The position numbers and the translations under genes were made by a program. Below are positions 1-50,738 of a stretch of 64,000 nt of DNA, one piece after another. The stretch covers positions 5,208,001 to 5,272,000 of the forward strand of contig NZ_CP011273.1 of NCBI RefSeq assembly GCF_001610895.1, read 5' to 3'. Within the stretch, counting starts at the first letter, position 1; each line of letters opens with the position of its first letter. Origin of the DNA: Planctomyces sp. SH-PL62. Its GTDB lineage: Bacteria; Planctomycetota; Planctomycetia; Isosphaerales; Isosphaeraceae. The notes below the pieces were generated by a model. The model ran no database searches and was not told the DNA's origin. It worked only from the letters and a program-made list of their open reading frames with translations.

Positions 1-1017
1 GCCCGCGACAACCTGACGGCCTGGTGCATCGTCCCCTTCGATTCCAAGAATCGCACCCCCGAGGAGCGGGCGGCGATGCTGGAACGTCTGGGCTTCACGC
101 ACTTCGCCTACGACTGGCGGGCCGAGCACGTCCCGACGTTCGACCAGGAGGTCGAGGCCCTCAAGCGGCACGGCGTCGCGCTCGACGCGTTCTGGTGCCC
201 CGGCGAGCTGAACGACGACTCCAGGCGCATCCTGGACCTGCTCAAGCGGCACGGCCTCAAGTCTCAGCTCTGGATTCTGACGGATCTCGGGGCCGACCCG
301 GCTGAGGGAGCCGAGCAGGAGCGTCGCGTGGCCGAAGGGGTCGCGCGGATCAAGCCGCTGGCCCAGGCCGCCGCCGAGATCGGCTGCACCGTGGCCCTCT
401 ACAACCACGGCGGCTGGTTCGGCGAGCCTGAGAACCAGATCGCGATCATCGAGCGGCTGAAGCAGGACGGGGTCGCGAACGTCGGCCTCGTCTACAACCT
501 GCACCACGGGCACCCGCACGTCGACCGCCTGAAGCCGCTGTTGCAGACGATGATGCCGTATCTCCTGGCCCTGAACATCAACGGCATGGACCCCGGCGGC
601 GACGGAGGGGCCCGCAAGATCCTGCCGCTGGGCCAGGGCGGGCTCGACCTGGAGATCCTCCGCACGATCCGGGAGAGCGGCTACACGGGCCTGATCGGCA
701 TCCTCGGCCACACGCAGGACGACGCCGAGGAGCGGCTCCGCGACAACCTCGACGGCCTGGATTGGCTCGTCCCCCAGCTCGACGGCGCGGCGCCCGGCCC
801 CAGACCCACCCCGCGCACGCCGGTCCCCCCCTGCCCGCCCCGGCCGCCGCGGCCGGGCTCTCGCCGGCGGAGGCGCAGGAAGTCGCGACCGTGCTGGAAG
901 CCGCAAGACGCGAGGGCGACCCCACTCGGGGCGCGTCGGCGTTTACCGACGTCCGCTTCACCTGCTTCTCCTGCCACAAGGTGGGCGAGGTGGGTGGAGG
1001 GATCGGTCCCGAGCTGA
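1..1017 (+). CDS. Sugar phosphate isomerase/epimerase-type TIM barrel (5'-partial, N-terminal part of a frameshifted multidomain gene)
   Basis: The frame is open from base 1, so the start lies before the window. The protein resembles xylose isomerase-like TIM-barrel proteins: LGFTHFAYDW near the start, ALYNHGGWFGEPENQ, GLVYNLHHGH, and ALNINGMDPGG followed by a GYTGLIGILGH strand, which are barrel strands carrying His, Asn and Glu metal or substrate ligands. The barrel ends near base 780 (LDGLDWLVPQLDG). Beyond that the frame degenerates into Pro/Arg-rich nonsense until the stop at 1015-1017. Adding one C to the seven-C run at 825-831 joins this frame to the cytochrome c protein that follows, through a Pro/Ala-rich linker. 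I therefore read it as the N-terminal domain of one gene. The substrate is unknown. Confidence 0.75.
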   Translation, partial: ARDNLTAWCIVPFDSKNRTPEERAAMLERLGFTHFAYDWRAEHVPTFDQEVEALKRHGVALDAFWCPGELNDDSRRILDLLKRHGLKSQLWILTDLGADPAEGAEQERRVAEGVARIKPLAQAAAEIGCTVALYNHGGWFGEPENQIAIIERLKQDGVANVGLVYNLHHGHPHVDRLKPLLQTMMPYLLALNINGMDPGGDGGARKILPLGQGGLDLEILRTIRESGYTGLIGILGHTQDDAEERLRDNLDGLDWLVPQLDGAAPGPRPTPRTPVPPCPPRPPRPGSRRRRRRKSRPCWKPQDARATPLGARRRLPTSASPASPATRWARWVEGSVPS

Positions 1018-3854
1018 CCACGTTGACCCGGACGACGACGCCCGAGGAGATCATCGCCTCGGTGCTCTGGCCCCGGCGCACGGTCAAGGAGGGCTACGAG
1101 GCGTTCGCCTTCGCCCTCGACGACGGCCGGTTCGTCCAGGGTTACAAGGCGGCGGAGACCCCGGCCGAGGTCCAGGTCCGCGACGCGGCCTCCGGCGAAG
1201 TCGTCCCGATCGCGAAAGACTCGATCGAGGAGGTCAAGCCCCTGGGCACCCTGATGCCCGAGGGCCTGGCCTCCTCGATGTCCCCTCGCGAGCGGAGCGA
1301 CCTTGTCAGCTTCCTGTTGACCCTGGGGGCCGAGGGGGTGATGACCCCCTCGCTGACCCCGCCGGCGCACGCCCACGCCCCGGCCGAGTTCGCGTACGAC
1401 CAGAAGCCCCTCCGCCCCGAGTTCTACACCAGCGCCGACGACCATGTGAACCGGAACCGGGTCTTCGACTTCTACGCCAAGGAGGCGGACCACTTCCGCA
1501 AGCAGGCGAATCCGCCGTCGCTGCTGCCGATGTACCCCGGCCTCGACGGCGGCAAGTCGGGCCACTGGGGCAACCAGAACGAGTCCACCTGGGCCGACGG
1601 CCGCTGGAATGAGAGCGACCTGGGCTCGGTCCTGGCGGGCGTCTTCCGGGCCGAGGGCCTCACCATCCCCAAGGCCGTCTGCCTGCGGCTGGGCGAGAAC
1701 GGCGAGCTCTCCGCCTGCTTCAACCCCCAGACGCTGACCTATGAGGCGCTCTGGACCGGCGGCTTCGTCCGCTTCTCCAGCGTCCGCCACGGCTTCATGG
1801 AGGGCCTGATCCAGGACGGCCAGCCCCTGCCACGGCCCGAAGCCGCCGCGCCCGGCGGGCCGTTCGTCTACAAGGGATACTACCGACACGGCAAGCGCGT
1901 GATCTTCTCGTACACGATCGACGGCGAGGACTGGCTCGACGCCCCCTGGGTGGACGAGTCCGGCCGGTTCGTGCGGGAGGCCGGCCCGGCCGCCTCGCAC
2001 CGGCTCCGCGACCTCACGCGCGGCGGGGCCGCGCAATGGCCCCAGGTGCTCGTCACCCACGGCAAGCTCGGCCAGTCTCGACCGTTCGCGATCGACACGA
2101 TCGAGCCGCCGTTCGAGAACCCGTGGAAGGCCCTGATGTTCTTCGGCGGGCTCGACTTCCTGCCCGACGGCACGGCGATGATCGCCACGATGGAAGGGGA
2201 CGTCTGGCGGGTCGAGGGCCTGAACGACGACCTGGCGAACGTGGCCTGGCGGCGGTACGCCTCGGGCCTGCACCAGCCGCAGGGGGTGGTCGTCGCCGAC
2301 GGCAAGGTCTACGTCGTGGGCCGAGACCAGATCACCGAACTGCAAGACCTCGACGGCGACGGCGAGGCCGATTTCCACCGCTGCGTCAACAACGCCTACC
2401 TGACCTCCCCGTCCGGCCACGACTTCGTCTGCGGGCTCGAACGCGACGCGGCCGGGAACTTCTACACGGCCTCCGGCCCCCAGGGCCTGCTTCGCGTCCC
2501 CGCCGACGGCGGCCCCCCCGAGGTGCTCGCCACCGGCTTCCGCAACCCGGACGGGCTCGGGCTCACCAGGGCCGGCGTCCTCACCACGCCCCAGTCCGAA
2601 GGCGAATGGGTCCCCACCTCGCAGATCTGCGAGATCCGGCCCGGCGCCCATTACGGCTACCCCGGCCCCAAAGATGACAGGCCCCCCGCCCTCCCCCTCG
2701 TCTACCTCCCGCGCGGGATCGACAACTCCAGCTCGGCCCAGGTCGAGGTGACGGGCGACCGCTGGACGCCGTTCCAGGGGAACCTCGTCCACCTGTCGTT
2801 CGGCGGGGCGGCGGCCTTCCTGGTCCTTCGCGACGAGGTCGACGGCCAGCCCCAGGGAGCCGTCGTCCCGCTCCCCGGCGACTATCTCTCCGGCATCCAT
2901 CGCGGCCGGTTCAGCCCGCGAGACGGCCAGCTTTACGTCTGCGGCCAGGCCGGCTGGGGGACCTATTCGTCGCTCGACGGCTGCTTCCAGCGGCTCCGCT
3001 ACACCGGCGACCCGGTCCAGACGCCGAAGTCGATCCGGGCGGTCGAGAACGGCGTGGTCCTGACGTTCCACCTCCCCGTCGACCCGGCCGTCGTCGCCCA
3101 GCCCGGCGCGTGCTTCGCGCAGGCCTGGAACTACCGATACAGCAGCGGCTACGGCTCGCTGGAATACTCGACCCGGCACCCAGGGACGCCGGGGCACGAC
3201 GTCCTGCCGATCCGCTCGGCCCACGTCCTGGGCGACGGCCGGACGCTGTTCCTGGAGATCCCCGACCTCCAGCCGGTGAACACGCTCCACCTGCGCCTGG
3301 ACGTCGGCGGGGATGCGCCCCAGGAACTCTTCGCGACCGTCCACAAGCTCGCGCCGCCGTTCACCGAGTTCGAGGGCTACCGGCCCGAGCCGAAGACGAT
3401 CGCGGCCCAGCCGATCCTCGCCGACATGGCCGCCCTGAAATTCAAGAAGGCCCCCAACCCCTGGGCCGCCAAGCTCCCCAAGGCCCGCGCGGTCGAGATC
3501 GCCGCCGGGAAGAACCTGACGTACACGGTCCCGGCGTTCAAGGTGAAGGCCGGCGAGACCATCCGGCTGACCTTCACCAACCCCGACGTCGTCCCCCACA
3601 ACTGGGTGCTGCTCCGCCCCGGCTCGCTGGCGACGGTCGGCGACCTCGTCAACAAGATCATCGCCGAGCCCGACGCCGCGATGCGGAACTACATCCCCCA
3701 GACCGATGACGTCCTCGCCTACGTCGACATCGTCGACCCCGACAAGAAAGCCGTCATCCACTTCAAGGCCCCGGACACCCCCGGCCGCTACCCCTACCTT
3801 TGCAGCTTCCCCGGCCACTGGATGGTCATGAACGGCGTAATGACCGTCGAATGA
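762..3854 (+). CDS. PVC-type cytochrome c / DUF6797-like / azurin-like multidomain protein (C-terminal part of the frameshifted gene)
   Basis: The frame opens at a TTG at 762, but believable protein begins near 830 (LPAPAAAAGLSPAEAQE), so independent initiation is doubtful. In order it has a cytochrome c heme site C68-F-S-C71-H72 followed by the planctomycete heme-binding signature ending LMPEGLASSM...LVSFLLTLG. Next comes a region with YPGLDGGKSGHWGNQNE that I recall as DUF6797, then a propeller-like dehydrogenase region (FFGGLDFLPDGTAMIATMEGDVWRV), and finally a cupredoxin. The cupredoxin has VVPHNWVLL and C1014-SFPG-H1019-WMV-M1023, the azurin ligand spacing C-x4-H-x3-M. It is probably exported and may pass electrons from sugar oxidation through heme to copper in one chain; that role is inference. 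The domain assignments are firmer than the start. Confidence 0.8.
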   Translation: MARPPARRRGARPQTHPAHAGPPLPAPAAAAGLSPAEAQEVATVLEAARREGDPTRGASAFTDVRFTCFSCHKVGEVGGGIGPELTTLTRTTTPEEIIASVLWPRRTVKEGYEAFAFALDDGRFVQGYKAAETPAEVQVRDAASGEVVPIAKDSIEEVKPLGTLMPEGLASSMSPRERSDLVSFLLTLGAEGVMTPSLTPPAHAHAPAEFAYDQKPLRPEFYTSADDHVNRNRVFDFYAKEADHFRKQANPPSLLPMYPGLDGGKSGHWGNQNESTWADGRWNESDLGSVLAGVFRAEGLTIPKAVCLRLGENGELSACFNPQTLTYEALWTGGFVRFSSVRHGFMEGLIQDGQPLPRPEAAAPGGPFVYKGYYRHGKRVIFSYTIDGEDWLDAPWVDESGRFVREAGPAASHRLRDLTRGGAAQWPQVLVTHGKLGQSRPFAIDTIEPPFENPWKALMFFGGLDFLPDGTAMIATMEGDVWRVEGLNDDLANVAWRRYASGLHQPQGVVVADGKVYVVGRDQITELQDLDGDGEADFHRCVNNAYLTSPSGHDFVCGLERDAAGNFYTASGPQGLLRVPADGGPPEVLATGFRNPDGLGLTRAGVLTTPQSEGEWVPTSQICEIRPGAHYGYPGPKDDRPPALPLVYLPRGIDNSSSAQVEVTGDRWTPFQGNLVHLSFGGAAAFLVLRDEVDGQPQGAVVPLPGDYLSGIHRGRFSPRDGQLYVCGQAGWGTYSSLDGCFQRLRYTGDPVQTPKSIRAVENGVVLTFHLPVDPAVVAQPGACFAQAWNYRYSSGYGSLEYSTRHPGTPGHDVLPIRSAHVLGDGRTLFLEIPDLQPVNTLHLRLDVGGDAPQELFATVHKLAPPFTEFEGYRPEPKTIAAQPILADMAALKFKKAPNPWAAKLPKARAVEIAAGKNLTYTVPAFKVKAGETIRLTFTNPDVVPHNWVLLRPGSLATVGDLVNKIIAEPDAAMRNYIPQTDDVLAYVDIVDPDKKAVIHFKAPDTPGRYPYLCSFPGHWMVMNGVMTVE

Positions 3855-25650: not shown

Positions 25651-27597
25651 ATGATCGAAACCGAGCGGAACGAGGCCGAGGCGCAAACCGCCATCGGCGT
25701 GGCCTGGCGCGTGCTCCTGCTCGTCGCCTTCGTCCTGGTGACGATCCCCATGTGGATCTCGCACATGGGCGTGGGCCTGGACCCCTCCTGGGGCACCGCC
25801 CTGCACCTCTCGGCGGCCAAGGGGCTCGTCCACGGTCGCGACTTCGTCTTCACCTACGGCCCTCTCGGCTTCGCGCTGGTGCCCAAGGAATACGGCAGCC
25901 TCAACGTGCACGCCGTGATTCTGCGCCTCGGTCTCCACCTGTTCTGGTGGACCTCGGTAGGCCTCCTCCTCTTCCGGGTGAAGGGCTACCTGACGCCGCT
26001 GGTCTTCGCCGCGACGATGGCCATGAGCGGGATCGCGCTCGACAACGAGTTCAACTTCGCCCTCACGGGCGTGACCATCCTGCCCGTCGCCGGGTTCCTC
26101 CTGCTCGCCGAGCTCGACCGCCGGCCCTCCTGGGCGATCCCCGCGGCGTTCCTCGCCGGGGCCGCGATCCTGACCAAGTTCAACGTCGGCGTCGCCTGCA
26201 CCGGCTCGCTCGGGATGTGGGTGCTGTTCCGGATCGCCCGCGACCACAGCCCCCGCGTGCTGCTCCGGGTGGCGCTGCTGGGCCTGGTGTATTTCGGCTC
26301 GATGGCGTTCTTCTTCCGGATCTACGGCGGCCCGCTCAGCGCCCTCTGGCCGTTCCTCCAGGCGTCCAAGGACCTGGCCTCGGCCTACTCGTCGCAGATG
26401 ACCGTCGACGACCCGGCGACGAGCGTGAGGGCGGTCGTCGCGATGCTGTCGCTCACGGTGATCGGCCTCCTCGTCAGCCTGGCGCGACGCTCGGCGCTCG
26501 CGCCGGCGTTCGCGATCATGCTCGTGCCGATGTTCGTCCTCTACAAGGGGGCTGTCGTCCGCCAGTCGACCGGCCACTTCCTGGCCTCCTGGCCGGTGAT
26601 GGTCAGCCTGACCGCCCTGGTGCTCCCCGCCGCGAGCCGGACGCTCCGGACGCGGGCCGTCGCCACCCTCGCCGTGGCGCTCGCGCTGGCCTCGGGGTTC
26701 TGGTACGCTCCCACGTCGGCCCTCAAGGTCGTGACCCGGGGGGCGTCCAACTGGATCGCCCTCTGCAACCTGGGGCAGACCCGGTCGAACATGTTCAACT
26801 ATGACGCCAAGCTCAAGCAGGAGCGGGCCCTGCCGGCCGCGATGCGCGACCGGATCGGGTCGCAGAGCGTCGACGTCTATCCGTGGGAGACCTCGTTCGT
26901 CTGGGCCAACGACCTCAACTGGCGGCCCCGGCCGGTCTTCCAATCGTACACCGCCTACACGCCCCGGCTCGACCAGATGTGCGCCGAGCACTATCGCGGC
27001 CCCCGCGCCCCGAAGTTCATCCTCTATTCGCACTACGCGATCGACTTCGAGCACCCCTGCGTCGTCGACTCGCGGACCTGGATCGAGATGTATCGCTGGT
27101 ACGACTGCGTCGAGGGGGACGGCGACCTCCTGCTCCTCGAGCGCCGCGCCGAGCCCCGATGGCGGGGCGCGGAACGGCTGGAGGAGACCCCGATGACCTT
27201 CGCGAAGTCGTACTCGCCGCCAGCCGCCGGCGAGGGCCTCGTGTTCCTCAAGGCCAAGTTCGAGCTGTCGCTCCTGGGCAAGCTGACGGCCCTCTTCTAC
27301 AAGGTCGACCCGCCCGTCATGCGGGTCCAGTACAAGGAAGGGGAGGCGGCCAATCATCGGCTGGTCTGGCAGAACGCGGCGGGCGGATTCCTCGTCAGCA
27401 GCCTGCCGCGCGACGTGAACGGCGTCGTCCGGCTGTTCCATGAGGGAGCCGCCGACGAGGTCGTGGGGGTTTCGTTCCACGACCCGAGCGGCTTTCTCAA
27501 GCCCGACATCCGGGTGACGGCCTGGAAATCCGGCCCGGCCGCCGCGCCGTCGCCGGCCGCCGTGGCGACCACCGGCGAGCGACCCGCCGCCCGCTGA
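25651..27597 (+). CDS. Large multi-pass membrane protein, possibly a GT39/GT-C-type glycosyltransferase
   Basis: 648 residues. A hydrophobic helix (VLLLVAFVLVTIPMWISHM) is followed by a loop with GLDPSWGTALHLSAAKGLVHGRDFVF, where an Asp in the first extracytoplasmic loop is typical of GT-C enzymes. About ten further helices follow up to residue ~370 (ATLAVALALASGFWYAP). The last ~270 residues are soluble and probably periplasmic (PWETSFVWANDLNWRPRPVFQ). It lies 78 bp after the GT2 gene. The likely role is sugar transfer from a polyprenyl carrier outside the membrane; the GT-C assignment is inference from topology and context. The planctomycete family is otherwise uncharacterised. Confidence 0.72.
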   Translation: MIETERNEAEAQTAIGVAWRVLLLVAFVLVTIPMWISHMGVGLDPSWGTALHLSAAKGLVHGRDFVFTYGPLGFALVPKEYGSLNVHAVILRLGLHLFWWTSVGLLLFRVKGYLTPLVFAATMAMSGIALDNEFNFALTGVTILPVAGFLLLAELDRRPSWAIPAAFLAGAAILTKFNVGVACTGSLGMWVLFRIARDHSPRVLLRVALLGLVYFGSMAFFFRIYGGPLSALWPFLQASKDLASAYSSQMTVDDPATSVRAVVAMLSLTVIGLLVSLARRSALAPAFAIMLVPMFVLYKGAVVRQSTGHFLASWPVMVSLTALVLPAASRTLRTRAVATLAVALALASGFWYAPTSALKVVTRGASNWIALCNLGQTRSNMFNYDAKLKQERALPAAMRDRIGSQSVDVYPWETSFVWANDLNWRPRPVFQSYTAYTPRLDQMCAEHYRGPRAPKFILYSHYAIDFEHPCVVDSRTWIEMYRWYDCVEGDGDLLLLERRAEPRWRGAERLEETPMTFAKSYSPPAAGEGLVFLKAKFELSLLGKLTALFYKVDPPVMRVQYKEGEAANHRLVWQNAAGGFLVSSLPRDVNGVVRLFHEGAADEVVGVSFHDPSGFLKPDIRVTAWKSGPAAAPSPAAVATTGERPAAR

Positions 27598-27600
27598 GGC

Positions 27601-28254
27601 TTACTCGCCGGCCAGCAAGCCGAGGATCGCGGACAGGCCGACGACGAGGACGACTCCCAGGATCACAAGGCCGAGGACGAGGAGCGGAGAGAACAGGAAC
27701 GCCACGGGGGGGGCATCGCCGCCGCTGCCGCCGCTGCCGCCGGCGCCCAATCCGTCCTCGTCCAGGTCGTCCCAGTCGTCGTCCTCGATCCCCAGATCGG
27801 CGGCGTCTTGCGACCACGTCTGTGAGAGGATCACGCGGGCCTCGGACTCCAGGCTCGCCGGGACGCTCAGCTTCACGCCGCCGGTGGCGACGTGGTACAT
27901 CGACTTGCTCCCCATGCGTTCGCCGTCGACGACGGTCGGGATCCCCTCCGCTTCCAGGCGGATGCGGGGGGCCTGGCACGCCAGGGCGTCGGTGAACCGG
28001 GCCACCATCACCCAGGGACCCGTCGCCCGGCTCCAGGCGGGGGCCGGGGCGTCCTCTTCCAGCGGCAGGTCGTGCTTCGGGCAGAGTGCCCCGGCCTCCC
28101 GAGGCTGGAAGTCCTCGCACACCGGGCAGTATCCCTGCGCGACCATGCGATCGCCGCAATGGGCGCAGAGGTCGTCCTTGGGCGCTTCCGCTCCCGTCTT
28201 GAGACAGGACGGGCAGAACCAGGGGATCGGTCTCGAAGTCGACGTGCGGCTCAT
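27601..28254 (-). CDS. Zinc-ribbon / DUF2007-like membrane protein
   Basis: 217 residues from the ATG at 28254, preceded by GGGAGCC; the frame is open to 28332 but without a good start. Several CxxC pairs come first (FCPSCLKTG, LCAHCGDRM, YCPVCEDF), forming tandem zinc ribbons. Then comes a DUF2007-type signal-transducing domain (MVARFTDALACQAPRIRLEAEGI...VVDG), an acidic linker (GIEDDDWDDLDEDG), and a C-terminal membrane helix (LLVLGLVILGVVLVVGLSAILGLL). It is tail-anchored with its ribbons in the cytoplasm. Its stop is 4 bp from the convergent membrane protein gene. Function unknown; the DUF2007 call is tentative. Confidence 0.78.
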   Translation of the reverse strand: MSRTSTSRPIPWFCPSCLKTGAEAPKDDLCAHCGDRMVAQGYCPVCEDFQPREAGALCPKHDLPLEEDAPAPAWSRATGPWVMVARFTDALACQAPRIRLEAEGIPTVVDGERMGSKSMYHVATGGVKLSVPASLESEARVILSQTWSQDAADLGIEDDDWDDLDEDGLGAGGSGGSGGDAPPVAFLFSPLLVLGLVILGVVLVVGLSAILGLLAGE

Positions 28255-28420
28255 CGTCGGCGGCTCCCTGCGGGCGTGCCGGTCCACCGCCGGGCGGGTG
28301 GCCCTCCAGGCGGAGACGGGCTCCCCTCTCATTCTATTCGCACCGCGCCGGGATTTCTTGGCGCCGGGCGAGGAACGGCGCGAGAGCCGGACGGGACGTA
28401 GGGCGTCGGCCGGGCCGAAT

Positions 28421-30249
28421 TCAGCGAGACGCGGCGATCCGCGAAGGCGGGGGTGCGGCGGCGGGGTCCATCCGCGATTCGAGCCGGATCACGTGGACGG
28501 CGCCCGGCTTGGTCGCCGCGGCGAGGATTCGGCGACGGTCGTTGAAGGCCAGGGCCGAGGTCTCGGCGCCCCCCAGGTTCAACGGTCCCAGGACCGGGAA
28601 TCGGCCCAGCAGAACCGTCGGGGCGACCTGCACGAGGTCGAGCGTCGAGTCCTCGGGCTGCGAGACGACGAGGTAGGCGGCGGTGTCCGTCCCGGCGTCG
28701 GAGGCCGCGTGATCGGGGTTCGGCCTCGCGGCCAACGCCACGGCATCGTGCTCGTCGACGGCGGGAATGAGGATCCAGTCGCCGTCCTGCGACCGCGAGA
28801 CGTGCGGCGCGTCGCCGTCCTTGAGATTCATCCGGCCGACGGCCTGGGGGCTACTCGGGTCGGCGAGGTCGATCGCGACCGCCTGCTTCGCGCGGGCCAT
28901 CGTCACGAGGGCCCGCCTCCCCTGTCGCGAGAGGGTCAGCCGATCGGGGTCGTCGTCGTCGCCGAACGCCAGGCGGCCAACGGGCGCCGAGGTGGACGAG
29001 TCGAGAATGGCGGAGGTGGCGTGGACGGTCAGCTCGGGAGCGGGCTTCGCGGCGTCCCCTTCGCCCCGACCGGAGGTCAGCACCATCAGGAAGGCGCCCT
29101 CGGGCGTGGCCGCGAGGTCGTCCGGGTAGTAGCCCGCCTCGATGCGAGCCCCGACACGATCGCCTTCGAGCGTGAAGACGTCGAACCAACCGGGGCCGAG
29201 ATGCTTGGCGTCGTTCACCGGGCGTTGGAGGACCGCGACGTTCCCGCCGACGACCGCGATGGCGACCGGGCGGCCGTCGACCGCGATCTCCGAAAGGGGC
29301 GAGAGTTTCGCCTCCTCGTCCACGCGGTAGACGATGACGTGGTTGTAGCGCGGGCAGAGCACGGCGAGCCGTTCGCCAGCCTCGTCGAAGGCGACGCGCG
29401 TGGCACGCTGCTGGCCGGTAGCCTCGCGGTGGGTCTCGCGCAACAGCCATGGCCCCGCGACCGCCTCGACGGGCGCCTGCGCCCGCTGGACGATCAGGGC
29501 GCCGGCCGCGAACAGCAGGGCCGCGGCGACGGCCAGCGTCGCGAGCACCGCCGGGCGGACCATCCCCGAGGGTTGCGAGGGGGACGGCCCCTCCGGCTTG
29601 CGGCGGCCGAGATTCACCCGATTCTCCGTCCCCGCCAGCAGGCGGCCGATGTTCTTGCGGTGCCTGGCGATCAGGAGGACGACGACCGCCACCACCAGGA
29701 CGCTCATCGCGCGATGCTCGCGGCTCCACGGCTCGTCGGCGCGGCCGAAATACGCGGCGGCGAACGCCAGCCCGCCGATCATCGACGAGAGCGAGACGTA
29801 CCGGCTGATCAGGAAGACCGTGAAGAACGCGGCCGTCGCCGCGCCGCACGCAACCGGCTCCAGCGCCAGCAGCGCGCCCAGGCTCGTCGCCACTCCCTTG
29901 CCCCCCTGGAAGCCAAGGTAGACCGGGAAGTTGTGCCCGAGGATCGCCCCGATCGCCGCCGCGACCGGGAGGTCGGGGGGACGGGCCAGCCCAGGGTCTC
30001 GAACAGCCGAGGCACGCCCAGGGTCGGCAGGAGCCCCTTGAGCACGTCGAGGAGGAAGACCAGCACGAAAAAACGGAAGCCCAGCAACCGGCCGAGGTTC
30101 GTCGCCCCGATGTTGCCCGAGCCGACCTTGCGCACGTCCTCCCTGGTGAGGGAGTAATAGATCAGGTACCCGAACGGGATCGCCCCGATCAGGTAGGCGG
30201 CGAGGGCGGCGGCGGGATAGGTCCAGGTCAACGCGGGGCCTCCGGTCAC
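28421..30249 (-). CDS. plsY: PlsY glycerol-3-phosphate acyltransferase fused to a propeller-like domain (frameshifted)
   Basis: PlsY moves an acyl group from acyl phosphate to glycerol 3-phosphate at the inner membrane. The first frame (30249 down to about 29980) has helices and motif 1 (GSGNIGATNLGR) and DVLKG. The second frame (about 29975 down to 28421) has motif 2 (GHNFPVYLGFQGGKGVAT), motif 3 (HRKNIGRLLAGTE) and then a fusion: a membrane helix plus about 380 residues of WD40/YVTN-like repeats (FDEAGERLAVLCPRYNHVIVYRV, ATPEGAFLMVLTSG). Joining them needs one extra C opposite the six-G run at 29975-29980. The full product would be 609 residues, against about 200 for normal PlsY. The start overlaps the nucleotidyltransferase gene by 4 bp. 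Confidence 0.85.
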
Positions 30250-31001
30250 TGGTCGCGGCCGATCTTCAGGACGGCCTCGTCGGGCTGTCCCAGGAACGCG
30301 GCGCGGCGGTTGTCGAAGATCTCATTAGCCGTCGCGTAGTCGTCGTGACGGCCGATGTCGAGCCAGTAGCAGTCCTGCTTGTAGCAGTTGACGGGACGCC
30401 CGGTCGTGCGCATCGCCTCCAGCAGCTCAGGCATGGTGACGGCCTGGCCGGGGACGAGATAGTCCCAGGCGTGCGGCTCCAGGATGTAGACGCCCATGCT
30501 GACCTGGAAGGAATACTCGGGCTTCTCGCGGTATCCCGTCAGGATGTGGGGGTCGTCTCCGAACTGGAGGACGCCGAAGTCGATCTTGACCTCGCGGGGG
30601 TACGACGCGATCGTCGCGGACGCCCCGCGCTCGCGATGGAAGTCGTACATCGCGCCGTAGTCGAGCGTCGTGAGGATGTCGCCGTTGATGACGAGCACCG
30701 GCTCCTCGGGGCGCCGGACCAGCGTGAGGCCGCCGGCCGTCCCGAGCGGGGCGACCTCGCGGCGATAGCCGATCTTCGCCCCGAACTTCCGGCCGTCGCC
30801 GCAGAAGGTCTCGATCAGCTCGGTCAGGTAGCCGGTGATGATCGTCACGTCGCGGAATCCGAACCGCGCGAGCTGGCGGAGGACCACCTCGATGATCGGC
30901 ATCGGGTCGTCCTCCCCCAGCGGCATCAACGGCTTGGGCAGGACGTGGGTGTAGGGTCGCAGTCGCGTCCCCTTGCCCCCCGCCAGGATCACGGCTTTCA
31001 T
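30246..31001 (-). CDS. Sugar nucleotidyltransferase (RmlA/GMP-like)
   Basis: 251 residues. The N-terminus is the NTP-transferase signature AVILAGGKGTRLRPYTHVLPKPLMPLG. Later motifs are EVAPLGTAGGLTL, VLVINGDILTTLDYG (the metal-binding Asp) and REKPEYSFQVSMGVYIL, with a C-terminal DIGRHDDYATANEIF loop. It activates a sugar phosphate to an NDP-sugar in the cytoplasm. No left-handed helix domain is present, so it is the short form, similar to mannose-1-phosphate guanylyltransferase or glucose-1-phosphate cytidylyl/thymidylyltransferase types. Sugar and nucleotide are undetermined. It overlaps plsY by 4 bp. Confidence 0.88.
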   Translation of the reverse strand: MKAVILAGGKGTRLRPYTHVLPKPLMPLGEDDPMPIIEVVLRQLARFGFRDVTIITGYLTELIETFCGDGRKFGAKIGYRREVAPLGTAGGLTLVRRPEEPVLVINGDILTTLDYGAMYDFHRERGASATIASYPREVKIDFGVLQFGDDPHILTGYREKPEYSFQVSMGVYILEPHAWDYLVPGQAVTMPELLEAMRTTGRPVNCYKQDCYWLDIGRHDDYATANEIFDNRRAAFLGQPDEAVLKIGRDQ

Positions 31002-31068: not shown

Positions 31069-32319
31069 TCATCCCCGCCCGGCCTTCTTCCGATTCCCGA
31101 CCTTCGCGGCGTGCGGCCCGGAAGCGGGCCTCCTGCCGTGGGTCGCGGATTTCGCCCTGGCGGCGGCGACCTCGCGGAATACCTTCACCAGCGCCTCGAC
31201 GTGGCGGTCGAACGTCCACTCGCGGCCGAGCTTCGCCGCTTCGATCGACATCGCGCGGCGGCGGGACTCGTCGGCCATCCCGTCAAGCGCGGCGACCAGT
31301 TCGTCGCGGGCGTCCGGGGCCGACAGCACGAATCCCTGCCGGCCGTGGTCCATCAGCTCACTGGCCCCGTTGCACGCGGTCGTGACGGCCGGCAAGCCGC
31401 AGGCGAGCGCCTCCAGCACGACGAGCGAGCAAGGGTCGTAGTAGGTGGGCGAGATGAAGAAGTCGCTCGACCAGTAGCACTCGCGGACGTCGTCGTGGAA
31501 GCCCAGGAAGTGGACGAACTCCCCCACCCCCAGCCGTTGCGCAAGTCGGCGATACCAGCCCGGACGGCCGCCGCCGCAGATGAGCAGGTGGATCGGCCGG
31601 ACGCCGGGCTTGTTCCGGGCGGCCAGCCCTCGGATCAACGGTTCCAGCCCCTTGAGCGCGTAGTTGTGGCCCACGAACAGGCCGACGAGGTCGTCCGGCG
31701 CCAGGCCGATCCGGTCCCGAAAGACGCACCGCAAGGCCCCCGGCTGCGGCACCAGGACCCGGTCGGGGTCGATCGCGTTGGGGACGACGTGGATCCGCGA
31801 CTTCGGAACCCCCTCGAATTCCTGGACGTGCCGGGCCACCATCCGGCTGGCCGCGACGACCCGCGCCCCGCGGTCGGCGGCGTACTGCCGTTTCTCGATC
31901 GCGCGGTAGGTCCAGAACTTGGGATTCAGCACCTTCCCCATGACGTAGAGCCGCCGGGTCAGGGCGTTGCCGAACCGCAGCGAATTCGCCCGCAGGCTGC
32001 CGCGGTGCACGCCCCCCTGGGGGATGATGACGTCGTGCTCGTAGGTGTTGATGAACCCGATGGTGCAGTCGTAATCGGCGTTCTTGAGGAGCCTGGCCGA
32101 CGCCTCGGCGAAGCCGGCGACCTGCTCGCGGCGGGTGCGGCCCGGCGACTCGACCCGGATGCAGCGGACCTCGGCCGGCAACGCCCCCTCGGCCCAGCTC
32201 GACGTGAACAGGTCGACCTGGTGACCCGAGCGCGTGAGACTGCGGCAGAGGTCGACGATGTAGGTCTCGGCCCCGCCTTTCGTGGGATCGACTCTCGGAA
32301 AGTTCAGGGCCAGCCTCAT
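31069..32319 (-). CDS. Family 4 glycosyltransferase
   Basis: 416 residues from the ATG at 32319, which begins directly with the GT-B strand MRLALNFPRVDPTKGGAE; the longer frame upstream is not believable. The acceptor-side loop TKGGAETYIVDLCRSL, the middle IHVVPNAIDPDRVLVP, LVGLFVGHNYALKGLEPLI, and the donor motif DPCSLVVLEALACGLPAV (E-x7-E type) are all present. It is a retaining cytoplasmic transferase for LPS core or exopolysaccharide. Basic residues at the C-terminus (RKKAGRG) may aid membrane contact. It lies 67 bp upstream of the nucleotidyltransferase gene, in the same operon direction. Confidence 0.88.
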   Translation of the reverse strand: MRLALNFPRVDPTKGGAETYIVDLCRSLTRSGHQVDLFTSSWAEGALPAEVRCIRVESPGRTRREQVAGFAEASARLLKNADYDCTIGFINTYEHDVIIPQGGVHRGSLRANSLRFGNALTRRLYVMGKVLNPKFWTYRAIEKRQYAADRGARVVAASRMVARHVQEFEGVPKSRIHVVPNAIDPDRVLVPQPGALRCVFRDRIGLAPDDLVGLFVGHNYALKGLEPLIRGLAARNKPGVRPIHLLICGGGRPGWYRRLAQRLGVGEFVHFLGFHDDVRECYWSSDFFISPTYYDPCSLVVLEALACGLPAVTTACNGASELMDHGRQGFVLSAPDARDELVAALDGMADESRRRAMSIEAAKLGREWTFDRHVEALVKVFREVAAARAKSATHGRRPASGPHAAKVGNRKKAGRG

Positions 32320-32438: not shown

Positions 32439-33287
32439 TCAGTGCGCGTTGTGCGAGGAATACCGCGCCGCCTTGAGCCGGATCATCCGGGCCTGCCACG
32501 CCGGCCGTCGCATCCCCGCCGCTTTCTTGTAGTGCATCCAGAACCGGAGGACGTCGCGCGAGGAGACGCCGGCGACCCCCTCGATCGAGTAGAGGAGCTG
32601 TCCCAGGTCCTTCCAGCGCCAACGGTCGGCCATCAGCCGGTGCTCGCGGAGCCGGTGAAGGTCGATCAGCGTCAGCTCGACGTCCCGAGGATCGCGCGCC
32701 GCTTTCTCCAGGTTCAGGAAGAAGTGGCAGAGATAGAGATCCTTGTGGAACGTCCGGGCCCGGTGCAAGGTCGCGGCGATCCGGGCCATCTCCCCGACGA
32801 TCCGCCGCTTCATGGCCGCGAACGATTCCGGGTCGAGCGATCGCTCCAGGTCGGGGAGGACCTCGTTCAACTCACGTCCGGGGAGTTCGGCGACCGCCAG
32901 GTAGCTCTGGAGACCCCCCCAGGGACCGATCCGTTCGCCGACCGCGACGACCTCCGGGACCGGGACGCCCAGCGCCCGCGCCCGCTCCAGGTGGGACCAC
33001 TCGGCCGCGCCCGGCGAATGCCTCCCGGACGGGTCGACGGTCGCCGCAAGCCGGGCCGCCAGCGGGAGCCGGAAATGCCGCTTGAGGTAGACCGAGACGC
33101 GCCGCTCGGCCCCGTGCAGGACGACGCGGGCCGTCGACCGCCCCTGCTTGGCGTGGAGCCGGTCGCGACTGACGATCGCCATGACGGAGGCGTCGAAGTC
33201 GGCCGGCAGCGCCTCGCGGTAACGATCGTTGATCCACGACCATCGCGAGCCCCGGATCAGGCGTTTCCAGAACGCTCGCAAGCTCAT
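32439..33287 (-). CDS. WaaP/RfaP-like lipopolysaccharide kinase
   Basis: 282 residues. The start at 33287 overlaps the GT39 stop as ATGA; the longer frame upstream is a shadow of that gene. The body is an eukaryotic-like kinase fold of the WaaP/Kdo kinase group: VSVYLKRHF (Lys), ERARALGVPVPEVVAVGER, LAVAELPGREL (hinge), the catalytic FHKDLYLCHFFLN (HxD) and LTLIDLHRLR (DFG-like Asp). The family phosphorylates heptose or Kdo of the LPS inner core. A 119-bp gap separates it from the GT4 gene. With lpxK and GT9 nearby, this supports a lipid A-core-type LPS. Confidence 0.88.
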   Translation of the reverse strand: MSLRAFWKRLIRGSRWSWINDRYREALPADFDASVMAIVSRDRLHAKQGRSTARVVLHGAERRVSVYLKRHFRLPLAARLAATVDPSGRHSPGAAEWSHLERARALGVPVPEVVAVGERIGPWGGLQSYLAVAELPGRELNEVLPDLERSLDPESFAAMKRRIVGEMARIAATLHRARTFHKDLYLCHFFLNLEKAARDPRDVELTLIDLHRLREHRLMADRWRWKDLGQLLYSIEGVAGVSSRDVLRFWMHYKKAAGMRRPAWQARMIRLKAARYSSHNAH

Positions 33288-34879
33288 GGCGTGAAGCCTT
33301 CCCAGGAGATCGGTTGATTCATGCGGTAGATCCGCGTCCCGACGTCGCGGCCGTCGACGATCACCGGGAAGTCGCGGACGGGCGTCGCCGCGAAGGCCAG
33401 CAGTGCATTGAGGCTCTCGGCGCGTCGACTCTTCGCCCGCAGCTCGTCGCGACCCACGACGACGTAGGCGAGGCTCCGATCCGAGAGCGCCTGGCGGACG
33501 TGCCAGTAGTCGTACCCGTCCGCCCGGTCGGCCACGAACCGGGCCCAGCCGCGGGTGTCGAGGATCTGCTCGCCGGCCCGGGCGTTCGCGACCAGCCAGC
33601 GACCGGCCTCCCAGTGGCCCCGACGACTCTCGTGCCCCGTGCGGAGTTGGTAGACGACCAGGATCAGGGCGACGAACGCCGTCACCACGGCCACCGCGCC
33701 CCGCCACGCTCGCGGCGGGACGGCGAGCTTCATCCCTAGCCCGCGGACGCAGACGAAGACCCCCGCCCCCGCCCAGATCGACGACGCCGCCACCAGCGGC
33801 AAGACGTGGCGGCTCGACAGGTAACCCAGGCTCGATCCGTGTCGCACGAGGACGAGGACGTAGGTCGCGGCGAAGACGCCCAGCACGAGCCCCTCGGCCC
33901 CGCCGGCGCCCGGCTCGCGGTCGCAGAGCCGCTGGACGGCGCGGCGGCGGGCCAGCCCCCAGACGGCCATGATCGCGAAGCCCCAGCACATCTCGTCCCA
34001 CCATTTCCGGCCGACCCAGACGAGGGCGGCGACCGGCCCGCCCAGGGTCTTGTCGTCCGACTCCTCCTTGGCGGAGAGGTCCAGGCCGGCCTCGGCGAGT
34101 CCCTGAGGCAGCGGCTGGGGCGTCGAACGACGGGCGGCGGCCTGCGGGCCCAGCGACGCGGCGTGGCGCAGGGCGAGCTTCTCGGAAACCTGCCCTTTCG
34201 CCAGCGCGTACGAGCCGACGCAGACCAGGACGGCCAGCCCGAGGGCCGGCAAGGCCGGGGCGGTCGCGACCGCACTCGCCCCGCGAGTCCGCGCCAGGTA
34301 GAGGGTCCAGGCCAGCCCGACGGCCATCGGCGCGAGGATCGCCTCGGGCCTCGCCAGGTAGCCGACGCCGCCGGCGAGCCCGGCGGCCAGGGCGAGCCGC
34401 CACGAATCGCGACGGATCGCCGCCGCCCCGAGCGCGAGCGTCGCCGTCATCCCCAGCAGGCCCAGGGCGTTGCCCAGGGTGTCGCGGCCGACCTCGCCGG
34501 GGACGGGAAGCAGCACGTAGAGGATCACGGCGATCAACGCCACGCGTTCGTCGAAGATCGCCCGAGCCAGCGCGAAGAGCGGGAACAGCAGCAGGAGCGA
34601 GGCCAGGGCCGACACTCCCTGCGCGGCGATTCGCCAGGCGTCCGGGCCGGGGCCCAGCAGCGCCGCCGAAACGGGCTCGACGGCCGCGATCAGCGCGGGA
34701 TAGAGCGGGTGCTGGTCCGTCCCCTTGATCACGTCGATCCAGGGATCGGACTGGAAGCGGCGGGCGGCGGCCAGGAACTTCAGGCCGTCCTGGGCCGGGA
34801 CGAGCGTGCGGTGGATCGCCGCGACGTGGAGGAGTGCGGCGAACGTCAGGATGCCGATGAACCAGCGACGATGCGCCAC
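33284..34879 (-). CDS. GT39/ArnT-like membrane glycosyltransferase
   Basis: 531 residues. TM1 (WFIGILTFAALLHVAAIHR) is followed by a loop with VPAQDGLKFLAAARRF carrying the GT-C catalytic Asp, then DQHPLYPALIAAVEP. About ten helices follow (SLLLLFPLFALARAIF, ALIAVILYVLLPVPGEV, AWRGAVAVVTAFVALILVVYQ). A periplasmic C-terminus (LVVGRDELRAKSRRA) ends the protein. It probably transfers a sugar or aminosugar from an undecaprenyl phosphate carrier to lipid A or core. The start is the ATG at 34879, about 70 bp after the epimerase stop at 34950. Confidence 0.85.
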   Translation of the reverse strand: MAHRRWFIGILTFAALLHVAAIHRTLVPAQDGLKFLAAARRFQSDPWIDVIKGTDQHPLYPALIAAVEPVSAALLGPGPDAWRIAAQGVSALASLLLLFPLFALARAIFDERVALIAVILYVLLPVPGEVGRDTLGNALGLLGMTATLALGAAAIRRDSWRLALAAGLAGGVGYLARPEAILAPMAVGLAWTLYLARTRGASAVATAPALPALGLAVLVCVGSYALAKGQVSEKLALRHAASLGPQAAARRSTPQPLPQGLAEAGLDLSAKEESDDKTLGGPVAALVWVGRKWWDEMCWGFAIMAVWGLARRRAVQRLCDREPGAGGAEGLVLGVFAATYVLVLVRHGSSLGYLSSRHVLPLVAASSIWAGAGVFVCVRGLGMKLAVPPRAWRGAVAVVTAFVALILVVYQLRTGHESRRGHWEAGRWLVANARAGEQILDTRGWARFVADRADGYDYWHVRQALSDRSLAYVVVGRDELRAKSRRAESLNALLAFAATPVRDFPVIVDGRDVGTRIYRMNQPISWEGFTP

Positions 34880-47751: not shown

Positions 47752-48576
47752 ATGATCCGCCTCAGCGCCTTCGCCGACGAGATCTCCCAGGATCCGAAGG
47801 AACAGATCGAGGTCCTGACGCGACACGGCGTCAAGAACATCGAGTTCCGCGCCATCCACGGCGCCAACGTCCTCGACCTCTCCGAGGAGCAACACCAGGA
47901 GTTCCGGTCCCGGCTGCGCGACGCCGGCTTCGGCCTCAGCGCCATCGGCTCGCCGATCGGCAAGATCCGGATCACCGACCCGTTCGACGAACACCTCGGC
48001 CGCTTCGCTCGGGCGCTCGACCTGGCCGACTTCCACGAGTGCCCCAGGATCCGCGTCTTCAGCTTCTACATGCCCCCCGGCGACGACCCGGCGGACCACC
48101 GCTCGGCCGTGGTCGACCGCATGGCCGAGCTGGCCGCCCTCGCCCACGACCGCGGAGTCGTCCTGTTCCTGGAGAACGAGAAGGGGATCTACGGCGACCA
48201 CGCCGACCGCGTCCAGGACCTGCTCGCGGCCGTCGACTCCCCGGCGCTCACGCACGCCTTCGACCCGGCGAACTACGTCGAGGTCGGCCAGTCGATCGAC
48301 GACGCCTGGACGCTCCTCCGCCCTCGGGTCGCCCACTTCCACGTCAAGGACTACAGCGAGGCGCAGCACCGCAACGTCCCCGCCGGCGAAGGGGACGGCC
48401 AGATCCCCCGCCTGCTCGAGGACGCGGTGCGCACCGGCTACGACGGCTTCGTCGTGCTGGAGCCCCACCTGATCGTGGCCGAGCTTTCCTACGGATTCAC
48501 CGGCCCCGAACGCTTCGCCGACGCGGCCAACGCCCTCAAACGGATCCTCGACGAGAAGTCGATCGCCTTCGCCTGA
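47752..48576 (+). CDS. Sugar phosphate isomerase/epimerase family TIM barrel
   Basis: 274 residues, no signal peptide. Barrel features: IRLSAFADEISQDPKEQIEVL, KNIEFRAIHG (Glu ligand), GLSAIGSPIGKIRI, VLFLENEKGIYGDHADR (Glu), LTHAFDPANYVEVG (Asp/Asn), VAHFHVKDYSEAQHRNVPAGEGDG (His and Lys) and GFVVLEPHL (Glu). The metal-ligand set is complete, so it should be an active AP_endonuc_2-type isomerase or epimerase such as xylose isomerase-like or 3-keto-sugar enzymes. Substrate unknown. It is followed 34 bp later by the exported TIM-barrel gene, probably in one transcript. Confidence 0.87.
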   Translation: MIRLSAFADEISQDPKEQIEVLTRHGVKNIEFRAIHGANVLDLSEEQHQEFRSRLRDAGFGLSAIGSPIGKIRITDPFDEHLGRFARALDLADFHECPRIRVFSFYMPPGDDPADHRSAVVDRMAELAALAHDRGVVLFLENEKGIYGDHADRVQDLLAAVDSPALTHAFDPANYVEVGQSIDDAWTLLRPRVAHFHVKDYSEAQHRNVPAGEGDGQIPRLLEDAVRTGYDGFVVLEPHLIVAELSYGFTGPERFADAANALKRILDEKSIAFA

Positions 48577-48610
48577 ACCTGAACCGCCCCACTTTCCCAG
48601 GGAGTCGCTC

Positions 48611-49579
48611 ATGAGTCGGCACGAATCGCTCAGCCGTCGTTCGTTCCTCCGAGGCGCCGCGGCCGGCGGGGCCCTTCTCGGCCTCGGATCGGGCTTCTCC
48701 CTGCGCGGGAGCCTGGCCCTCGGCGCCGAGGTCACTGGCAAGCCCAAGCCGGGCAAGATCGGCGACTTCAAGATCTCCCTGGCCGAGTGGTCGCTGCACA
48801 AGGCGCTCTTCGCCAAGAAGCTCGACAACCTCGACTTCCCCAAGGTCGCCCGCGAGGAATTCGGCATCGAAGGGGTCGAATACGTCAACCAGTTCTTCAA
48901 GGACAAGGCGCACGATTCCGCCTACCTGAAGGACCTCAAGAAGCGGGCCGACGACCACGGCGTCACCAACGTCCTGATCATGATCGACGGCGAGGGCGAC
49001 CTGAGCGCTCCGGAGAAGGCCGCGCGGGGGCAGGCCGTCGAGAACCACAAGAAGTGGGTCGACGCCGCCGCCGCGCTGGGCTGCCACGCCATCCGCGTCA
49101 ACACCGGAAGCCACTACAGCAAGTCGGACGTGGCGAACGCGGCCGAGGCCTGCTCGGCCCTGGCCGACTACGGCGTGAAGCACAAGATCCACGTCATCTG
49201 CGAGAACCACGGCGGGCCGTCCAGCGACCCCGACGCCCTCCTCGCCCTGATCAAGGCCGTGAACAACCCGAGCTTCGGCACCCTGCCCGACTTCGGCAAC
49301 TTCCCCAAGGCCGACGGCAAGTACGCGATCGACGTCTACGACGCCATCGCCCGGATGATGCCCCACGCCCACGGGGTCTCGGCCAAGAGCTACGACTTCA
49401 ACGACAAGGGCGAGGAATCCAACCTCGACTTCGCCCGCATCATGAAGATCGTCACCGACGCCGGATACCACGGCTTCGTCGGCATCGAATACGAGGGCGG
49501 CGGGCTCGGCGAGGCCGAGGGGATCAAGGCCACCAAGAAGCTCCTCGAATCGCTCCGAGGCTCCGAATACCGCGGCTGA
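48611..49579 (+). CDS. Tat-exported sugar phosphate isomerase/epimerase-like protein
   Basis: 322 residues. The N-terminus SRRSFLRGAAAGGALLGLGSGFSL is a twin-arginine signal, so the folded protein goes to the periplasm. The barrel shows ISLAEWSLHKALF, IEGVEYVNQFF (Glu), LIMIDGEGDLS, GCHAIRVNTGSHY, HVICENHGGPSSDPDALL (Glu/Asn/His), GTLPDFGNFP (Asp), HGVSAKSYDFNDKG and HGFVGIEYEGGG (Glu). Planctomycetes export many such proteins. GGGAG lies 10 bases before the ATG. With the cytosolic homologue upstream it probably handles a sugar or polyol on both sides of the membrane; that pairing is inference. Confidence 0.88.
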   Translation: MSRHESLSRRSFLRGAAAGGALLGLGSGFSLRGSLALGAEVTGKPKPGKIGDFKISLAEWSLHKALFAKKLDNLDFPKVAREEFGIEGVEYVNQFFKDKAHDSAYLKDLKKRADDHGVTNVLIMIDGEGDLSAPEKAARGQAVENHKKWVDAAAALGCHAIRVNTGSHYSKSDVANAAEACSALADYGVKHKIHVICENHGGPSSDPDALLALIKAVNNPSFGTLPDFGNFPKADGKYAIDVYDAIARMMPHAHGVSAKSYDFNDKGEESNLDFARIMKIVTDAGYHGFVGIEYEGGGLGEAEGIKATKKLLESLRGSEYRG

Positions 49580-49607
49580 CCGCCCCCCGGCCGACACGCT
49601 CGACGAC

Positions 49608-49637
49608 CCGCGGACCCGGCCTTGACCGGGTCCGCGG
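49608..49637 (+). terminator. Intrinsic terminator hairpin after the TIM-barrel pair
   Basis: Perfect 12-bp stem CCGCGGACCCGG / CCGGGTCCGCGG, six-base loop, followed by CCTTT, 29 bp after the stop at 49579. Confidence 0.75.
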
Positions 49638-49790
49638 CCTTTCGTATCGTACGCAACCAAACCGGCGCATTGCGGCCGGTCGATCGCCGGGGCGAGTGGG
49701 GACAAGACGTCCTCCGGGCTCCACGCGGCCCTCCGCGGGATCATCCGAAACCAAGACGCACGACACGACGACGAACCAGGGACGGAACCC

Positions 49791-50738
49791 TTGTCGCCTG
49801 ATCGCACCCAGATCCTGGTGCTGAACTACAACGGCCGGGCGCTCCTCCAGGAGTGTCTGCCTTCCGTCCTCGAGGCCGCGCGCCGATCGCCGACCCCCTG
49901 CGGCGTCGTCGTCGTCGACAACGACTCGGCCGACGATTCGCGGGACTGGCTGGCCCGCCGCCATCCCGACGTCCGCGTGATCCACCTCCCCAACCGGGGC
50001 CTCGCGTCGTTCAACGACGCCTTGAAGGAGATGGACGAGCCCGTCGTCCTGCTGCTGAACAACGACGTAAAGCTCGCCCATGACTCGGTGGCGCCGCTGC
50101 TGCGGGTCTTCGCCGAGCGCGACGACGCGTTCTTCTCCGCCCCCCAGTGCTGGACGTTCGACGGCCGGCTCTACGAGGGGATGCGGACGCGGGTGCGGAC
50201 CCGGTTCGGACTGGTGCAGGGGATGAGCCGCGTGCCGGGCCACGAGGCCCACGTCGACCGCGCCGACCTCACCGCCGCCGCCGGCCCCGTGCTGGCCGTC
50301 GACCGCGTCCGGTTCCTGGAGCTGGGCGGCTACGACCCGATCTACCACCCCGGACGGATCGAGGACCTGGACCTGGGCTTCCGCGCCTGGATGGCCGGGC
50401 TCCGGGGCTACTACGTCCCGGAATCGATGGCCTATCACAAGGGCTTCGCGACCTTCGCGCCCGAACTGGGCGAGTCTCGCTGCGACGGCCTGGCGATCCG
50501 AAATACGCTGATCTTCGCCTGGAAGAACCTCCGGGGGGCCCGGCTGGCGAGGCATCTGGGCTGGCTGCCGATCCGGCTCGCCGGCTCGATGATCCGCGGC
50601 CGTCGGACCTTCGCCCGGTCGTTCCTCGAAGCCGCGTCGCGCTGGCGCGAGGTCGTGAAGGCGCGACGGGACCTCCACGCGGGGCGGGACGGCTGGGTCG
50701 AACGCCAGGAAGCCTTCTTCCATCGATTCGAATGGTGA
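49791..50738 (+). CDS. Family 2 glycosyltransferase
   Basis: 315 residues starting at TTG (GGGACGGAA upstream). It is a GT-A fold: QILVLNYNGRALLQECLPSVL, VVVVDNDSADDSRDWL, VVLLLNNDVKLAHDSV (the NND at the DxD position), AAAGPVLAVDRVRFLELGGYDPIYHPGRIEDLDLGFRAW (acceptor-side ED motif). This is the rhamnosyl/rhamnan-type GT2 pattern. It opens the second glycan operon; GspA-like membrane anchors are absent. The product is presumably made on a lipid carrier in the cytoplasm. Confidence 0.87.
   Translation: MSPDRTQILVLNYNGRALLQECLPSVLEAARRSPTPCGVVVVDNDSADDSRDWLARRHPDVRVIHLPNRGLASFNDALKEMDEPVVLLLNNDVKLAHDSVAPLLRVFAERDDAFFSAPQCWTFDGRLYEGMRTRVRTRFGLVQGMSRVPGHEAHVDRADLTAAAGPVLAVDRVRFLELGGYDPIYHPGRIEDLDLGFRAWMAGLRGYYVPESMAYHKGFATFAPELGESRCDGLAIRNTLIFAWKNLRGARLARHLGWLPIRLAGSMIRGRRTFARSFLEAASRWREVVKARRDLHAGRDGWVERQEAFFHRFEW

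Follow-up and report, generated by a model that had tools for sequence, protein, structure and literature searches.

The plsY gene of Planctomyces sp. SH-PL62 raises the question why an acyltransferase of phospholipid synthesis should continue, past its own last motif, into a long propeller-like tail, directly behind genes of LPS type. How phospholipid supply is balanced against LPS in Gram-negative bacteria is, to our knowledge, an open question, and a committed lipid enzyme that is usually wired to a conserved, predicted periplasmic module would offer a direct handle on this balance. In the window (the whole 64,000-nucleotide stretch of DNA that was analysed) the gene runs on the minus strand from 30249 to 28421 and encodes, in this order, PlsY, a basic linker, one additional membrane helix and a predicted seven-bladed propeller (Table 1), an architecture that is well supported. 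The first part of plsY, whose GTG start at 30249 overlaps the stop of the upstream nucleotidyltransferase gene, comprises 92 residues. The stop-free frame from 28421 to 29980 carries the second half of PlsY (GHNFP, GGKGVAT, RHRKN, GTE) and about 400 more residues, which are, after the GTE, the basic linker, the hydrophobic helix and then about 350 residues. An earlier note on this DNA had described a PlsY fused to a propeller at 28421-29640. The fusion itself is borne out by the unbroken frame, by its conservation in the family and by the predicted seven-bladed fold; the interval holds the tail, but of PlsY it takes in just the last part, and the frame break inside the gene was missed.

Table 1. 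Coordinates of the plsY-tail gene, its parts and its neighbours in the window.
Feature	Position	Strand	Evidence and remarks
plsY, first part	29974..30249	-	GTG start; GSGN, GATN and the next Arg; single frame; Pfam G3P_acyltransf 1-66, E=2e-20
plsY, second part	29624..29980	-	Other frame; GHNFP, GGKGVAT, SLSS, RHRKN to GTE; G3P_acyltransf 68-164, E=1e-25
Frame break in C run inside plsY	29974..29980	-	Probably an assembly error; PF02660 in two pieces; 35 fused relatives unbroken
Basic linker, predicted cytoplasmic	29552..29623	-	Sequence; same place is of low confidence in the P. soli model
Eighth transmembrane helix	29489..29551	-	Sequence; helix 227-251 in the P. soli model; hydropathy of 40 tails
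Seven-bladed propeller, predicted periplasmic	28424..29482	-	AlphaFold; WD40 fold matches; conserved face is blades 7-1-2-3
Sugar nucleotidyltransferase	30246..31001	-	NTP_transferase E=3e-38; stop overlaps plsY start; precedes plsY in 30/31 loci
GT4 glycosyltransferase	31069..32319	-	Pfam search and locus comparison
Kdo/WaaP (RfaP-like) LPS kinase	32439..33284	-	PF06293 E=1e-22; RfaP model E=2e-30, below its cut-off
PMT_2-type membrane glycosyltransferase	33284..34879	-	Pfam search and locus comparison
Cys-rich (zinc-ribbon-like) protein	27601..28332	-	Downstream of the fusion; no Pfam match; found in 14/31 loci

The frame break in the C run means that a single open reading frame for PlsY and the tail is absent from the SH-PL62 assembly, in which PF02660 matches as two pieces and a profile search finds no second plsY copy. 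Such a single frame is present in 35 relatives, and the PlsY frame is intact in all 40 family loci read over the length of the enzyme, of which 35 are fused and 5 split. The break is probably an error of the assembly, as judged from these sequences, and a programmed frameshift has been set aside because the 35 fused relatives do without a break. When compared with the relative G029, three of the 38 window genes look frame-broken, plsY among them and one perhaps a shadow ORF; that the SH-PL62 assembly is error-prone in general has thin support. The other two are a long plus-strand gene at 1-3851, which aligns with the relative in two frames (1-792 and 870-3851) and possibly contains a frame break, and the minus-strand stretch 48441-49825, a frame-broken match to an ORF of G029 that may itself be an opposite-strand shadow.

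The enzyme part has the features of a regular PlsY, the acyl-phosphate:glycerol-3-phosphate acyltransferase. The fusions of Paludisphaera soli, S. acidiphila and T. sociabilis score 165-168 bits with TIGR00023, against a cut-off of 137.2, and the two PlsY pieces of the window are each above the Pfam cut-off, scoring singly 99.8 and 61.7 bits, below the TIGR00023 cut-off. In Aquifex PlsY the substrate is contacted by Ser35, Thr41, Arg45, His92, Lys104, Ser142, His177 and Asn180, as listed in the accessible part of PMC5700162. The motifs that hold these residues are found in the two window pieces, with the family aligned to the Aquifex structure 5xj5 and the numbers matched to the motifs by eye. 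The similarity to the Aquifex structure extends over the enzyme (E=1e-51), and the substrate-contact residues named in that part of the paper are shared. PlsX, the maker of acyl-phosphate, is encoded in the same genome. Since the contact residues and PlsX are present, the enzyme half should act like any PlsY.

The tail is predicted to be a seven-bladed propeller. The AlphaFold model of the tail, calculated with 17 sequences, has a pLDDT of 88.2 and a pTM of 0.87, so that the structure prediction proposed in the earlier note agrees with its suggestion of a propeller. In this model the seven blades, to which the strands have been assigned by eye, are closed by the N-terminal strand, and in the window copy two of them, blades 5 and 6, have an eroded appearance. 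The model of the intact P. soli homologue (pLDDT 82.5, pTM 0.62) shows a linker of low confidence, then a helix of 25 residues ahead of the propeller, and the VIA-align list for this full model is taken up entirely by its propeller part. The best structural matches of the tail model are WD40 proteins, with Z values of about 26. The predicted fold is thus the one common to WD40/YVTN seven-bladed propellers (3ow8, WDR5 entries), from which the tail differs in having only 8-14% identity in the structure alignment and in falling, for the window copy, below every Pfam cut-off. A generic WD40 tie at this level of identity is silent on the function of the propeller. A search of PDB sequences with the tail profile returns short repeat matches and nothing longer, such as a short match to the propeller of 1l0q (E=1e-6). 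Assignment to the Lactonase (PF10282) or the choice-of-anchor I (PF22494) propellers has been rejected; the profile likeness is weak, and the scores of the window tail, 12.5 and 17 bits, lie below the respective cut-offs of 21.7 and 32.

The membrane helix that the earlier note saw in the tail is found as a hydrophobic stretch in the window and recurs in the family, where in each of 40 homologous tails the 19 best residues average 1.68 or higher in hydropathy. The structure of PlsY, as described in the accessible part of PMC5700162, comprises seven helices, with the active site lying in that half of the membrane which faces the cytoplasm; the Aquifex protein has 192 residues, to which the SH-PL62 form adds the eighth helix and the propeller. 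With one more helix after it, the C-terminus of PlsY, which is cytoplasmic, would be followed by a periplasmic propeller. This is also in agreement with the net positive charge, which is higher before the extra helix in 34 of the 40 tails, and the suggestion that the propeller lies outside the membrane can be retained on these grounds. Four of the six tails that have no charge bias belong to stand-alone propeller genes (G010, G033, G034, G035); the periplasmic placement is therefore more firmly suggested for the fused form, and the orientation is less sure for the stand-alone proteins.

The fusion is a property of the family. In a sample of 45 Isosphaeraceae genomes from 21 genera, in which family and order coincide, the tail profile, built with the window's own tail included, matches 43 genomes (E=6e-150 in the SH-PL62 genome itself), and the PlsY profile also matches 43. 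At an E-value of 1e-6 the tail is found in none of the 352 other genomes of the class. Partial tail matches occur in 11 non-family genomes of a sample of 392, with E-values from 1.5e-6 to 8.9e-4, and are read as generic propellers. In a search that reached beyond the phylum, contigs were picked by one short peptide pattern and then examined with the tail profile, which confirmed 17 loci; these named loci include fused members in Paludisphaera, Singulisphaera and Tautonia, and one (L075) is split. The long PlsY frames outside the family encode proteins of 215-249 residues in the five that were read (G128, G384, G244, G199, G363), and further non-family PlsY frames of 300-450 are among the matches listed. 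The family forms a single clade (support 99/98) in a PlsY tree built from 57 rows. A divergent fused copy in G012 (L093), which has HPRF instead of the CPRY motif, sits on a long branch of this tree.

A search of the Isosphaeraceae for extended PlsY proteins, as the earlier note had suggested, finds the fused form in 37 of the 45 genomes and in 19 of the 21 genera (all except g4 and g18). The 37 comprise 35 fully read genes, SH-PL62 itself, in which one frame holds both the second half of PlsY and the tail, and G006, where PlsY extends over two contigs and its last part is in-frame with the tail. In five genomes (G005, G010, G033, G034, G035) the two parts are separate genes. This makes 42 assigned genomes, the remaining three having neither part (G003), only the tail (G021) or only PlsY (G036), and each of these lone parts sits at the start of a contig. 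A propeller gene that stands apart and has a start of its own, which the earlier note had named as evidence against a fusion, thus exists in 5 of the 42, four times overlapping plsY and once about 14 kb away; tethering of the propeller to PlsY is therefore common but not obligatory. In G033 and G035 the propeller start and the plsY stop share an ATGA overlap, and in G005 and G010, with the start codons that were chosen, the overlap is 8 nt; the overlap in all four is in keeping with a functional link. For G010, a draft genome, an indel error may account for the split. The stand-alone propeller gene of G034 (L091:1506-2765, minus strand) is on the opposite strand, directly before holA. A conserved internal start, by which fused genes would also yield a separate propeller, has been rejected; only 4 of the 35 fused linkers contain an in-frame ATG and 11 contain no ATG, GTG or TTG. 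In 10 of the 35 linkers there is a GTG preceded by a purine-rich segment, and internal initiation may occur in some fused genes.

The propeller is under purifying selection in all 12 pairs compared, with dN/dS values of 0.10-0.39, next to 0.11-0.43 for the PlsY part in the same pairwise analysis. Conservation is concentrated on one face of the predicted model, where the D-A and B-C loops have a mean of 2.47 bits versus 1.50 bits for the loops of the other face (p=2e-7, from 41 unweighted tails, the window and the five split forms included, with sites treated as independent). Nine of the 15 near-invariant polar residues are located in these loops, and in the predicted model it is blades 7, 1, 2 and 3 whose loops are conserved. 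In the tail numbering of the AlphaFold model the conserved loop residues are Q25, R26, R45, Y46, D91, H94 and E141, and C43, D121 and D122 are conserved at strand ends. As the split forms are within the 41 tails, the face has been retained whether or not the propeller is fused, and this suggests that the propeller has its own binding or active site.

The neighbourhood is also conserved. The plsY-tail gene comes after a cluster of sugar-nucleotide and LPS type, and the earlier remark that LPS genes adjoin the fusion holds for the NTP transferase, the GT4 enzyme, the Kdo/WaaP kinase and the PMT_2 protein. In a comparison of 31 loci, in which some genomes are counted twice, the one locus without a preceding NTP transferase is on a contig that begins just before plsY, and all four upstream genes are present in 14 loci, the other 17 ending early at contig or flank edges. 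In 17 non-family loci, with mostly short flanks, no like upstream neighbour was matched. Downstream, the gene of the Cys-rich protein was not matched in L079, L086 and L087, although the downstream flank is about 6 kb long in these loci. A membrane-type protein of 648 residues without a Pfam match, encoded at 25651-27597 on the plus strand, adjoins the cluster in 2 of the 31 loci (L071, L072).

The presence of the enzyme and the propeller in one chain or in an overlapping operon, alongside this cluster, suggests that phospholipid supply is coordinated with envelope assembly. We infer that a periplasmic binding module tied to PlsY couples the two, a reading that stands about an even chance of being correct. 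In such a membrane protein of two modules, the PlsY module would acylate glycerol-3-phosphate on the cytoplasmic side, and the eighth helix would take the chain across the inner membrane to the periplasmic propeller, whose conserved face would bind some ligand, or a partner, from envelope assembly. Phospholipid synthesis would thereby have its first step located where LPS and the outer envelope are built, or controlled by their construction. Counting against this reading are the five genomes in which the covalent link is absent, among them G034 with its widely spaced genes, and the G012 copy with its missing CPRY motif. The sensing or scaffolding role that the earlier note proposed for the added domain stays a hypothesis. 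A more specific version, which we regard as unlikely, makes the protein a transmembrane receptor-enzyme, whose propeller would monitor the outer envelope, by way of an LPS intermediate, a lipid or a partner protein, and would set the rate of the committed step of phospholipid synthesis from across the membrane.

The strongest rival to such coupling, itself somewhat unlikely, is a link of convenience, in which the propeller would have an unrelated periplasmic task and would have become attached to PlsY when overlapping genes of one operon were read through or joined again, the only gain being balanced expression. It is kept alive by the five split genomes with their four short overlaps, above all by G034 with its distant propeller gene, and by the PlsY tree, on which the split state needs three changes, two of them forced by well-supported branches, although the resolution within the family is weak. 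An accidental joining sits poorly, however, with a fused member in nearly every genus, with the adjacency of the genes in four of the five split cases, and with the fact that one part without the other is seen only at contig ends. It is also conceivable, but improbable, that the propeller itself has catalytic activity, of a lactonase or esterase kind, towards a lipid or sugar in the periplasm. The near-invariant Cys, His, Asp, Glu and Arg residues, mostly on one face, would suit a catalyst, and there are weak matches to the seven-bladed Lactonase family in 4 of 22 members (best E=5.5e-4) as well as a periplasmic gluconolactonase (6igb) at rank 18 of the Foldseek matches; yet the window tail is well short of the Lactonase cut-off, the WD40-type families PF12894 and PF23414 match as many members or more, and WD40 binding proteins head the structural matches. 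Almost no credence can be given to the tail as a chance open frame or a misassembly, in spite of the long chance frames that arise in high-GC DNA and the broken frame of this very copy, an artefact being ruled out by the retention of the tail across the family, by the purifying selection and by the confident predicted fold.

The preferred reading, of a periplasmic binding module coupled to PlsY, can be compared with the fusions already published. The Pfam-based look for PlsY fusions in the accessible part of PMC5700162 names only two, of DegV type (printed there as 'DagV'), in Bellilinea and Thermanaerothrix, in which the added domain is FakB-like (fatty-acid binding) and substrate channelling is suggested. 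The extra domain is C-terminal to PlsY in these proteins as described there, as in SH-PL62, but it is FakB-like, whereas SH-PL62 adds a helix and a predicted periplasmic propeller, and a Pfam search of the window protein gives no match to a DegV family. A description of the PlsY-propeller architecture was not found in the literature searched, most of it open-access. In the SH-PL62 protein an otherwise ordinary enzyme carries a domain that is specific to the family and predicted to be periplasmic, and this adds a second kind of PlsY fusion beside the published DegV type.
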